A stretch of 64,000 bases of DNA from Gemmata massiliana (lineage in GTDB: Bacteria; Planctomycetota; Planctomycetia; Gemmatales; Gemmataceae). The translations under genes and the position numbers were made by a program. Positions 31,307 to 35,382 of this stretch are shown one piece after another. The stretch is taken from contig HG799471.1 in the NCBI GenBank assembly GCA_000531095.1, positions 1 to 64,000 of the forward strand. Direction: 5' to 3'. The notes under the pieces were generated by a model. It had not been told where the DNA came from. It made no database searches and saw only the letters and a list, made by a program, of their open reading frames with translations. Numbering within the stretch: position 1 is the stretch's first letter; each line of letters starts with the position of its first letter.

Positions 31307-31951
31307 TTACTCCCAGTAGTCTTGCCACCGCGTGCCAAAGGTGGCCTTCAGGCGCGTGAGGTACGCATACGTCTTCACCTTCACCATCCACACGTCCCCT
31401 CCCCCGCTACCGCCCTTACACACGACGCCCTCCGCAACGCCGTACTTCCCCTCGCGCACCGCTTCGAGGAACGCGCCGGTGAGTTTCCCGGTGTAAACGA
31501 CACGCGGCGACGGGAGGTGCCCGAAGTCGGCCACGAACTGCGTTGGTGAAACGAAGCCGTAACCCTCGGCCCACACGTCGAAGAGGAGCGTCTGTTTCTG
31601 GTCACCCGGCTTATGTGCGCCGGCAAACGAGTTCGGTCCCAAGAACTCGGTGAACACCTTGATCGAAGTGAACGGCGAGTAGTTGGCGTGTTCGCGCAGG
31701 ATCGCGTCCAACGGCTCCGCGGTCGTGGCGAGAAATACGGGTGCGGCCTCTTCTAAGCCGGGGTGCGCGGCGTTGAACTCCGCGGTACCGGCCTCGGTTA
31801 GATTGAACTCGTCGCGCCGCGAACCAAATGCGTGCCAGCTGAAGTCGCGCTCCCAGCACCAGTGCAAGTTGGTGCCATCGAGTTTATCGAACGCGACGCA
31901 CCGGCCGATCGGCGCGGCGTCGCTCCCGGGCATCTTCGGGTAGTGGAGCAT
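31307..31951 (-). CDS. RNA ligase family protein
   Basis: A 214-residue nucleotidyltransferase of the RNA ligase (Rnl2-like) superfamily. The adenylation motif is DKLDG with K23 as the likely AMP-accepting lysine. SRRDEF (about 44-49), VFTEFLGPNSFAG (about 98-110), EGVVCKG and VKVKTYAYL near the C-terminus match motifs Ia to V. No additional domains, so the C-terminal partner-binding region is minimal. Substrate (nicked RNA, tRNA repair) is not shown. It has a weak ribosome-binding site and sits downstream of the sterol genes on the same strand, separated by a long inverted repeat. Confidence 0.8.
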   Translation of the reverse strand: MLHYPKMPGSDAAPIGRCVAFDKLDGTNLHWCWERDFSWHAFGSRRDEFNLTEAGTAEFNAAHPGLEEAAPVFLATTAEPLDAILREHANYSPFTSIKVFTEFLGPNSFAGAHKPGDQKQTLLFDVWAEGYGFVSPTQFVADFGHLPSPRVVYTGKLTGAFLEAVREGKYGVAEGVVCKGGSGGGDVWMVKVKTYAYLTRLKATFGTRWQDYWE

Positions 31952-31986: not shown

Positions 31987-32100
31987 AGAGTGTTTCACCG
32001 CAGAGGGCGCAGAGAGCGCGGAGAAAGGCCGAATGAGAAATGATCTTTCCTGCCTTTGCTTTGCTCCGCGCTCTCTGCGCCCTCTGCGGTGAAACACTCT
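31987..32100. repeat. 37-bp perfect inverted repeat
   Basis: Arms 31987-32023 and 32064-32100 pair perfectly over 37 bp (beginning AGAGTGTTTCACCGCAG) around a 40-nt loop. It ends 2 nt before the stop of the oxidosqualene cyclase gene, so it probably forms the 3' hairpin of the sterol transcript. It looks like a dispersed palindromic element. Confidence 0.95.
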
Positions 32101-32102
32101 TG

Positions 32103-34061
32103 CTAGAGAGCAGCCGCGAGTGCCCACACGGGGAAGTACTCGCGGTAGAGGTCGTAGTCGAGCATCGCCGTGCCGAAGAACACGCCGTTCACGGCTTCGC
32201 GTGGATGCCTACCCGCTCCTGATCGGTGCGCGGCAAGCCACTCGACCCCGCGGCAAACAGCAGTGTGCTTAGCCCCGACCACTTCGCACAGCGCGAGCAC
32301 AGCCCAACTCGTCATCGTCGCCTGCGATTCGGGGTGTTCAACACACTCCTGACGCAAGCAACTGGTGTAGTGTTCGCCCCACCCGCCATCCGGCTTTTGA
32401 TGACGAATCAACCAGTCCGCGGCCCGTTGAAGCGCGGGGTTACTCCCATAGCCGGCCGCACGCAGTCCGCGAACTGCGTGGAACGTGCCGTAGGTAAAGT
32501 ACACGCCCCAGGCGCCGGGGAACGCACCGCCCGAGTGCTGGCGACCGAGCAGGAATCGCGCGCCGCGCCGGATCGCGCGGTCGATTCGGTTTGTGGCGTG
32601 GTGCGGGACCGCCACACGGAAGCGCGAGAGGGCGACTAAACACGATCCGGTGCATTCGATGTACGACTGGTCCGTCATGCACCGCGTGAACATTTCCGAC
32701 GGGTTCAGCCGTTCGAGCCAGCGCGGGCTGCGTGCGCGCTCGTAAGACCCGAACCCGCCGTCGGGGTTCTGGCGCGAGAGGATAAAGTCCGCCGCGAGCG
32801 CGAGTCGCGTGTCTGAAATACGTTCGCGCGAGTCGAGTTCCAATTCCGGCGCCGCGTGCATCCCTAGAACCGCAGACAGTGCTTCCGCGGTGCAATCGCT
32901 CACCGGCCACGAGTGCGCCGAATCGCCCAAACACCACCCGCCGAGTGCGCGATCGGGGAACATCGGGTCGCGCCCCGCGACGGGCTTCATAACTTGCTGT
33001 TCGGCCAAGAAGCGGTACGCGCGCAAGAGCGCGTCACGGTTGGCACGCACCGCACCGGGATCGGCGAGCAGCGATTCAACGGCGAACCCGGTGTCCCACA
33101 CGCGAGTGCGCCCACCGGAGTAGCGGAGGCCGCGGGCTGCATCGTCCCAGCGGTAGGCCTCGAACCCCTCGACGCACTTCGCAATCAGCGCCCGGTCCGC
33201 TCCGCGTGCGTGCAGCGCGAGCACGTTTAGCACGCCGTTCACTGGCGAGAGTGTGAGGCGATCGGAAACGTCGAGGTCGAGTTGGATCAGATGCGCGCAC
33301 CGTTGCAGCGCGCTCTCACGCAGCCGCCGGATCGGGAACCGGTCGTACCACCCCATGACCCGCTCCGCAGCGCGAATGAGCAAGTTCGGCGGCTCGAAGG
33401 CGTCGCTCGGTGCGAGGTGATACCGGTGCTCGCGGAACGACGCGGGCGGCCCGGCCGATCCGTAGAGTTCGTGCCGGAGTTCGTCACCGAGGGAACCGAG
33501 CGCGAACCGCGCGTGGCTCCCCTGAAGGAGCGACATCGCGAGGTAGACATACCGCGTATGGCAGTAGAAACGAATGGGGTGAACGGGGAATGCGCGTGGC
33601 AGAAGTGCGAGTTCCGGCACGAGCGGCCGAAGCCCGTCGCGCCCGTAGAGCCCGAGCAGCGTGAGCCAGAACTTCCCCCACGTCGGTGCGGACAGAATAC
33701 CGCCCGGCTGAGCGTGCAGCCAGTTCCGGGCGCGAACGGCGAGCGGGTGGTCGGCACTCACACCGAGACAGCGCATCGCGACGTAGACCAAGCTCGTCAC
33801 GAACACCGAACCGGAGTGTTCGAGGTGCAGACCGAAGGCCCCGTCGGAAGTTTGTGTGCGCTCGAAGTGGGTAAGTATCTTGGCCGTATCTTCGGCCGAA
33901 AACGGGAGGCCCACAACGTGCCGCGTGATCGCCACCTGCGCGGTGACGACGGGGCACCAAATCATCTCCCCTTCCCAGTACCCATCGAGAGTCTGTAGGG
34001 CGCGGAGGTGCTCGGCGGCGCGTTCGGTAGCGGTCGAAAGTTCGTGCGGTACGGCGTTCAC
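32103..34061 (-). CDS. osc: Oxidosqualene cyclase (lanosterol/parkeol synthase type)
   Basis: A 652-residue terpenoid cyclase that folds 2,3-oxidosqualene into a tetracyclic sterol. The catalytic motif is VSDCTAE (387-393), the form found in sterol synthases with D389 as proton donor; squalene-hopene cyclases have DxDD in this place. QW-type repeats include RQNPDGGFGSYERA, RQHSGGAFPGAWG and HQKPDGGWGEHY. The length is close to other bacterial cyclases and shorter than eukaryotic enzymes. The GTG start lies 4 nt after the stop of the epoxidase gene, so they are cotranscribed. Gemmata obscuriglobus is known to make lanosterol and parkeol from such a pair. Which product forms here cannot be read from the sequence. 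Confidence 0.93.
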   Translation of the reverse strand: MNAVPHELSTATERAAEHLRALQTLDGYWEGEMIWCPVVTAQVAITRHVVGLPFSAEDTAKILTHFERTQTSDGAFGLHLEHSGSVFVTSLVYVAMRCLGVSADHPLAVRARNWLHAQPGGILSAPTWGKFWLTLLGLYGRDGLRPLVPELALLPRAFPVHPIRFYCHTRYVYLAMSLLQGSHARFALGSLGDELRHELYGSAGPPASFREHRYHLAPSDAFEPPNLLIRAAERVMGWYDRFPIRRLRESALQRCAHLIQLDLDVSDRLTLSPVNGVLNVLALHARGADRALIAKCVEGFEAYRWDDAARGLRYSGGRTRVWDTGFAVESLLADPGAVRANRDALLRAYRFLAEQQVMKPVAGRDPMFPDRALGGWCLGDSAHSWPVSDCTAEALSAVLGMHAAPELELDSRERISDTRLALAADFILSRQNPDGGFGSYERARSPRWLERLNPSEMFTRCMTDQSYIECTGSCLVALSRFRVAVPHHATNRIDRAIRRGARFLLGRQHSGGAFPGAWGVYFTYGTFHAVRGLRAAGYGSNPALQRAADWLIRHQKPDGGWGEHYTSCLRQECVEHPESQATMTSWAVLALCEVVGAKHTAVCRGVEWLAAHRSGAGRHPREAVNGVFFGTAMLDYDLYREYFPVWALAAAL

Positions 34062-34065
34062 GGTA

Positions 34066-35382
34066 TCAGTTCGTGAGGGCTTCGCGGGCGAACCAGCCGG
34101 CCCAATCCGCGAACCCCGCTACGGCGCCGAACGTGTACGCCAGCGGTCGGCGCCCGACCTCGGTGACGACCCGGCGCGACGCAGCAACCAGGAGGCGCGC
34201 GAACGTGACGCTGAGCGCGGCCCGGCGTGTTTCCCGAACAGCGAGCAGGCGCATGGTGTCGTGTCGGGCCGCCGCGGACGAGCGCCAGGTGTGGTAAACG
34301 GCTTCACGCAGCTCCGTGCTCCCCGCGTCCGCCCCCACGAATAAATCGTAAAGGCCCATCGAGAGCAACTCGGGCACGCGGCCCCGCGCGCGCCGAACGG
34401 AAGCGTATTCTTCAACCGAGCGCGATTTCGCGAGAGTGACCGCATCAAGGAACCCGACCGACATCCCGACCGCACAAAGCGGGTGGCAGTGACCGACCGC
34501 GTCGCCCACCAGTGCCATCCCGTTCCGCCCGTACTGTTTCCGGCGCATCCACTGGTTCGCCGCGACCGCCGGGGGACCGCTTGCGAGCGCCCGTGCGCAC
34601 GCTTCATGAACAGTTCGCGGAAGCGCATTCTGGTAAGCGGCGAGCAATTCGGCCGGGTTCCGCACCCACGCGACGCGGTCCGCGGGCACGTCGAAGCAGA
34701 CGCGCGCCTGGTGCTCATCGACCCGGAACGCGAGCACCGGACCGGGACCACCGAGGAACACGTTGCCGAATTCGGTGAACGGCAATGCGGCCGCGTCGAT
34801 CAGCACGCCGAGCATGTACGAGACGGGCTGGCTCCCGCCCGAGTGCCCGAGCGTTTGCCGCACCACGGATTGCCTGCCATCCGCACCCACGACCAACCCC
34901 GCCGCGACCTCGATAGTTCTCCTGCGATCCGGCGTCGCGACCGTAACCCGCCCCCGGGCGACATCGGTGACCCGGCACCCCGCAAGCACGGTCACGTTGT
35001 GTTCACACGTGAGCCGCTTCTGAATCGCTTCGACGATGAGGTGGTGCTGACACCCGACCGCGCGCTCGCCGCCGACATACGGTAACACGATGGGATCGCC
35101 GTCTTTGGGGAAGATTGCGAACCCGCGACCCGAGGCGTGCGGGATCGCATCGCGTGCGAAGTCAACGCCCAGGTCCGCGAGAATGCCCGCCCCGGTTGGA
35201 TGAAGCCACTCGCCACCGAGCCGATGGGTTTGCGGGCGCGCATCGACCAAACACACGCGAGCGCCAGCCCGAGAAAACGCGAGTGCGGTTGCGGTCCCGA
35301 CCGGCCCGCCGCCGACAATGGCCACGTCCGCGTCCAGGAGCGCGGGGAAGACCGGTTGTTCGTCCGAACCGGAATGAGGCAT
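34066..35382 (-). CDS. sqmo: Squalene epoxidase (FAD-dependent squalene monooxygenase)
   Basis: A 438-residue flavoprotein that converts squalene to 2,3-oxidosqualene with O2 and NADPH-derived electrons. FAD sites: GGGPVG (24-29), GADGRQS (166-172) and GDAVGHCHPLCAVGM (293-307). The last fits the GDA-x4-HPL-x3-GM pattern of squalene epoxidases. The C-terminal 90 residues are hydrophobic and basic, consistent with membrane association. It lies directly upstream of the cyclase. The assignment rests on motifs plus context; a general UbiH/geranylgeranyl reductase-like monooxygenase is the alternative. Confidence 0.85.
   Translation of the reverse strand: MPHSGSDEQPVFPALLDADVAIVGGGPVGTATALAFSRAGARVCLVDARPQTHRLGGEWLHPTGAGILADLGVDFARDAIPHASGRGFAIFPKDGDPIVLPYVGGERAVGCQHHLIVEAIQKRLTCEHNVTVLAGCRVTDVARGRVTVATPDRRRTIEVAAGLVVGADGRQSVVRQTLGHSGGSQPVSYMLGVLIDAAALPFTEFGNVFLGGPGPVLAFRVDEHQARVCFDVPADRVAWVRNPAELLAAYQNALPRTVHEACARALASGPPAVAANQWMRRKQYGRNGMALVGDAVGHCHPLCAVGMSVGFLDAVTLAKSRSVEEYASVRRARGRVPELLSMGLYDLFVGADAGSTELREAVYHTWRSSAAARHDTMRLLAVRETRRAALSVTFARLLVAASRRVVTEVGRRPLAYTFGAVAGFADWAGWFAREALTN

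Follow-up and report, generated by a model that had tools for sequence, protein, structure and literature searches.

Sterol synthesis is rare among bacteria and known from Gemmata, where Gemmata obscuriglobus makes lanosterol and parkeol. The sqmo-osc genes of this species were reportedly the subject of work by Pearson in 2003. In the same organism the co-located sqmo-osc genes have proved essential, and growth under terbinafine or zaragozic acid is rescued by exogenous lanosterol; the organism is also described there as a sterol maker, unlike its hopanoid-producing relatives (Rivas-Marin 2019, PMC6606645). Two Gemmata genomes bearing an oxidosqualene cyclase (OSC) were recorded by Wei 2016 (PMC4919349). 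Here we analyze a pair of genes of this kind in a window of 64,000 nucleotides from Gemmata massiliana (contig HG799471.1, positions 1 to 64,000), and compare it with its relatives. The window's genome is referred to as G000, and the relatives are given as G-numbers. Like sqmo-osc of G. obscuriglobus, the pair consists of adjacent genes for a squalene monooxygenase and an oxidosqualene cyclase in a planctomycete host; it differs in belonging to another species. A preliminary description of this DNA had presented such a pair as known in Gemmata, in agreement with both papers (PMC6606645, PMC4919349), and the pair itself adds a species to a kind of pair already recorded in the genus. The gene-level pattern of sterol and hopanoid genes across the family is an addition to the statement on G. 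obscuriglobus in PMC6606645, and the comparative results are the part that specialists might not expect, judging from the open-access papers with which we compared them. The features of the locus are as follows.

34066..35382, minus strand: predicted squalene epoxidase (squalene monooxygenase), 438 aa, over the Pfam SE cut-off and with SQLE as best match in profile and fold searches
34462..34506, minus strand: epoxidase motif GDA-x4-HPL-x3-GM, read from the sequence, with key residues invariant in 14 homologues
34062..34065, minus strand: gap of 4 nt between the epoxidase stop and the GTG start of the cyclase
32103..34061, minus strand: predicted 2,3-oxidosqualene cyclase (OSC; lanosterol synthase type), 652 aa, GTG start, assigned by TIGR03463, tree and active site
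32883..32903, minus strand: VSDCTAE catalytic motif of the cyclase, read from the sequence
31987..32100, no strand: palindromic repeat with 43-nt arms directly after the cyclase, a member of a dispersed family
31307..31951, minus strand: ORF of 214 aa beside the sterol pair, with a KLDGTN motif

The 4 nt that the preliminary description had placed between epoxidase and cyclase are indeed all that separates them, and from this spacing we infer that the two genes form one co-transcribed operon. A scan of the sterol pair locus found no consensus promoter or terminator. Both genes are under purifying selection, with dN/dS values of 0.09-0.15 among the three closest genomes. The strong hairpin noted earlier after the cyclase is very stable and in the right place, but it is longer than the 37 bp then assigned to it, with arms of 43 nt each (31987-32029 and 32058-32100) that are 95% complementary. 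Its stability (MFE -92.7 kcal/mol, where shuffled sequences average -42.0; z -12.2) and its presence at the matching site in G400 and G402, with arms 96-100% complementary, would suit a transcription terminator or a regulatory RNA dedicated to the sterol operon. We consider this unlikely: there is no T-run in the sequence directly after the stem, the terminator scan has no hit at 31987-32100, Rfam gives no match, the repeat was not found at the corresponding site in G401, G403 and G415, and kindred palindromes recur elsewhere in the window's genome. The more economical reading is a REP-like dispersed palindromic element that lies after the operon and is not special to the sterol locus. Members of the palindrome family (TTTCACCGCAGAGGGC...), REP- or MITE-like, are seen at 31987-32100 of the window and also in L062, L064, L065, L066 and L067. 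Beyond the repeat, the ORF at 31307-31951 is kept beside the sterol pair in G400, G401 and G402. The label of RNA ligase once given to it is not retained, since the ORF has no match in Pfam, NCBIfam or PDB and the one argument for the label is a KLDGTN motif seen by eye.

The gene at 32103-34061 encodes a protein predicted to act as a 2,3-oxidosqualene cyclase. It scores 981.9 bits against the NCBIfam oxidosqualene cyclase model TIGR03463 (cut-off 851), and its closest solved structure is human lanosterol synthase (1e-107), compared with 4e-40 for a squalene-hopene cyclase (SHC). An assignment to the SHCs was rejected: the hopene cyclase model TIGR01507 gives 222 bits, below its cut-off of 431, and VSDC replaces DxDD. 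Trees set the OSCs, that of the window among them, apart from the SHCs. In the more careful one, sampled without Methylococcales and myxobacterial OSC sequences, the cyclase clusters with human and plant OSCs, and the split between OSCs and SHCs has 100/100 support; a long-branched Streptomyces OSC was placed there among those of Gemmataceae with weak support. In human numbering, the active site retains H232, W387, D455, C456, Y503, W581, F696 and Y704, and differs at Y98 (Met), W230 (Tyr) and F444 (Leu).

The gene at 34066-35382 encodes a predicted squalene epoxidase, with 80.8 bits against Pfam SE (PF08491; cut-off 20.1) over model positions 2-258 of 276, and also with a match to Pfam FAD_binding_3. 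Its three FAD-binding motifs are GGGPVG (GxGxxG), GADG (DG) and GDA...HPL...GM (GD), with key residues invariant or nearly so; the last, spelled GDA-VGHC-HPL-CAV-GM (GDAVGHCHPLCAVGM, at 34462-34506), has its GDA, HPL and GM residues invariant across the epoxidase alignment. A profile built from 14 homologues reaches human SQLE at 3.8e-41, but the ubiquinone hydroxylase VisC/UbiI no better than at 8e-18. The predicted structure (mean pLDDT 86), which has C-terminal helices at 387-407 and 414-435, gave the same picture in a fold search, where three SQLE entries top the ranking (TM 0.76-0.79; for 6c6n, TM 0.79 and E 4.8e-27). A UbiH/COQ6 ubiquinone hydroxylase was rejected, with 73.1 bits for TIGR01988 against a cut-off of 224.65. 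Because the epoxidase motifs (GDA, HPL, GM) are conserved across homologues, and VSDCTAE likewise (15/15 Gemmataceae cyclase homologues), neither is a chance occurrence. The preliminary description had named both enzymes from these motifs, the cyclase as the VSDCTAE form of sterol synthases rather than the DxDD form; both names hold, the cyclase falling outside the SHCs and the flavoprotein lying nearer to human SQLE than to ubiquinone hydroxylases by sequence and by predicted fold.

In the proposed route, the epoxidase would convert squalene to 2,3-oxidosqualene using FAD and O2; the aspartate of VSDCTAE in the cyclase would open the epoxide, and the chain would fold into the protosterol cation, giving lanosterol, probably with parkeol. 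Each of the 17 genomes checked, including the window's, has genes of the squalene/phytoene synthase type. The sequence itself shows the families of both enzymes, their residues and their linkage; activity and product we deduce from homology, from V453 and from the biochemistry of G. obscuriglobus, and on these grounds lanosterol/parkeol is most likely the product. The exact mix is uncertain, because T381 corresponds to a Gly, in a loop that is shorter by one residue, and C449 to a His. With these two residues differing from those of lanosterol synthases, the main product might be another one, for instance cycloartenol or another triterpene alcohol; this is quite improbable, as the product-controlling G/H/V are identical in nearly all homologues of the genus Gemmata and G. 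obscuriglobus produces both lanosterol and parkeol. His at 449 is the residue cited for cycloartenol synthases, but among the bacteria that Wei et al. tested residue 453 alone followed the product, with V453 going with lanosterol and I453 with cycloartenol (PMC4919349). The alternative of a hopene cyclase that uses squalene, next to an unrelated flavoprotein of the ubiquinone hydroxylase type, has next to no chance: these enzymes belong to the same superfamilies as the pair (Pfam SQHop_cyclase domains matched by the cyclase, FAD_binding_3 by the flavoprotein), but the TIGR01507 and TIGR01988 scores far under cut-off, VSDC with no DxDD, the OSC/SHC split and SQLE as best profile and fold match all speak against it. 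Beyond the entry pair, we see no downstream route in the window's genome, because ERG4/ERG24 was not found there and the best P450 it has does not resemble CYP51; CYP51 was rejected for this protein, which matches no PDB CYP51 at 1e-20. We are thus highly confident that this planctomycete of the Gemmata type carries at the locus a two-gene operon for entry into sterol synthesis, predicted to lead to lanosterol and probably parkeol, in a lineage where sterol has apparently replaced hopanoids.

This last point comes from a homology survey of 95 Gemmataceae genomes (cyclase E <= 1e-100, epoxidase E <= 1e-30), in which many assemblies are fragmented and some genomes incomplete. Cyclase and epoxidase co-occur in the identical 15 of the 95 genomes, of which 12 belong to the genus of the window, an overlap with a probability of 9e-18 under random placement, and much less extreme given the relatedness of the genomes. 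The nearest relative compared (G400) has proteins 92% (OSC) and 96% (epoxidase) identical to those of the window; for G401 the values are 73% and 78%. Twelve of the 15 OSC genomes are without any hopene cyclase over the model cut-off, and the same 12 are without HpnH, compared with 58 genomes with such an SHC among the 80 that lack OSC (Fisher p for OSC versus SHC, uncorrected for phylogeny: 2e-4 family-wide and 0.045 within the genus). With SHC and HpnH missing from most pair-bearing genomes, sterols appear to have taken the place of hopanoids in this lineage. The replacement is not absolute, because G408, G417 and G484 carry both pathways. In two genomes of the window's genus, G410 (92% complete) and G416 (only 68%), the searches found neither OSC nor hopene cyclase nor HpnH. 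Matches from other parts of the phylum that are ~33% identical (L010-L013) were rejected as OSCs, as DCTA occurs in no cyclase of L010-L038; where the motif can be read, it is DxDD-like.

The former hopanoid locus is still recognizable in the window's genome. Where relatives keep an intact SHC, HpnH comes directly after it; an FAD oxidoreductase gene lies upstream of the SHC in G407, G408 and G417, and several of these relatives have leuS on the downstream side. In G000, G400 and G402 this FAD gene and leuS flank an SHC-like gene, and HpnH is gone:

L099:11567-13606 (G000:C5:556566-558605), minus strand: SHC-like protein of the window's genome, with DTES/DTDS instead of DxDD
L131:8637-10499, plus strand: SHC-like protein of a relative, with DTES/DTDS instead of DxDD
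L130:9919-11709, minus strand: SHC-like protein of a relative, with DTES/DTDS instead of DxDD

The SHC-like proteins of these three genomes branch inside the SHCs of the genus on a long branch. In them DTES or DTDS replaces DxDD, Arg stands at the equivalent of W387, and the score against the SHC model is 319 bits (cut-off 431). The locus thus resembles the SHC-HpnH hopanoid locus of Gemmataceae in its flanking genes, and differs from it in the missing HpnH, the DTES/DTDS motif and the Arg, while its protein remains under purifying selection. Its dN/dS across the three species (0.11-0.16) is similar to that of OSC and below that of intact SHC (0.18-0.23), which argues against a decaying pseudogene. 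From the motif changes, the score below the cut-off and the low dN/dS, we therefore conclude that the protein is maintained and has probably lost normal SHC chemistry. The modified gene was not found in G401.

Longer pathways are found in Methylococcales, Calothrix sp. NIES-4105 and myxobacteria, which have the entry by epoxidase and OSC in common with the present pair (PMC4919349, PMC10202945). The window's genome differs from them in showing the entry pair only, and the extended set appears in another genus of the family, in G484, a MAG (95% complete, 4% contamination, 550 contigs):

L157:3758-10362 (G484:C162), minus strand: five-gene sterol cluster with OSC, delta14-sterol reductase, ERG2/Sigma1R, SdmA-like Rieske oxygenase and CYP51

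G484 thus adds to the entry pair candidates for CYP51, delta14-reductase, ERG2 and an SdmA-like protein, all on a single contig and a single strand. The ERG4/ERG24 reductase scores 381 bits, with a delta14-sterol reductase as its top PDB match (5e-140), and ERG2/Sigma1R 197 bits; the Rieske protein is closest to SdmA (420 bits, under the 600 cut-off of that model), and the best match of the P450 is a CYP51 (7e-121). The G+C of the sterol contig (0.63) fits the other G484 contigs read, with mis-binning still possible. ERG4/ERG24 was found in none of the 14 other OSC genomes, and a search for ERG2 in 392 genomes of the phylum, a sample without G484, gave no match in the genomes or in the controls and so says nothing about absence. 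A P450 of G437 was rejected as CYP51, as other P450s outscore CYP51. The survey suggests that some Gemmataceae relatives carry a longer sterol pathway. OSCs are also borne on plasmids: one in Streptomyces sp. YIM 121038 (plasmid pSSP121038, L169) is 45% identical to that of the window, and one in Planktothrix agardhii (plasmid p2, L170) 40%, both close to genes for squalene synthase and an FAD oxidoreductase, and in Planktothrix also to P450 genes.

Three relatives have a further candidate enzyme near the epoxidase:

L092:7268-8221, plus strand: sterol-methyltransferase-like SAM methyltransferase of G414
L091:8278-9186, minus strand: sterol-methyltransferase-like SAM methyltransferase of G412
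L162:12934-13836, minus strand: sterol-methyltransferase-like SAM methyltransferase of G484

In G412 and G414 the gene lies between epoxidase and cyclase, and G484 has a homologue near its epoxidase, 51% identical to that of G414; at 1e-40 it is in no other of the 95 Gemmataceae genomes. An approximate segment of yeast ERG6 is 42-44% identical to the three proteins, and RebM 39-41%. The stretches SFHFAIF and IEAGCHMP recall SMT motifs, a likeness to the bacterial sterol C24-methyltransferases (PMC10070321), from which the three proteins differ in that no match to Sterol_MT_C was reported and a RebM-type methyltransferase ranks first among their PDB matches. The main paper on bacterial SMTs uses neither the word Gemmata nor the word planctomycete (PMC10070321). 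As a lead only, the protein may be akin to sterol C24-methyltransferases, possibly as a new branch.

For the history of the family, we propose tentatively, and at somewhat less than even chances, that the gain or retention of epoxidase and OSC accompanied the dismantling of hopanoid synthesis, with SHC in the window's lineage not just lost but turned into a conserved protein devoid of DxDD and presumably with a new role, and that the minimal pathway of Gemmata is perhaps reduced and not primitive, since sister lineages carry longer sterol pathways. Bacterial sterols are relevant to the origin of eukaryotic membranes, and to whether steranes can serve as fossils of eukaryotes. In Gemmataceae, close relatives are predicted to be sterol-only, hopanoid-only, both or neither, a natural comparison; because they span all four gene states, the replacement of hopanoids by sterols is testable within one family. 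The set of CYP51, delta14-reductase, ERG2 and SdmA-like protein of the G484 type would widen the candidate bacteria for demethylated sterols, and the relatives bearing the methyltransferase would widen those for side-chain-methylated sterols.
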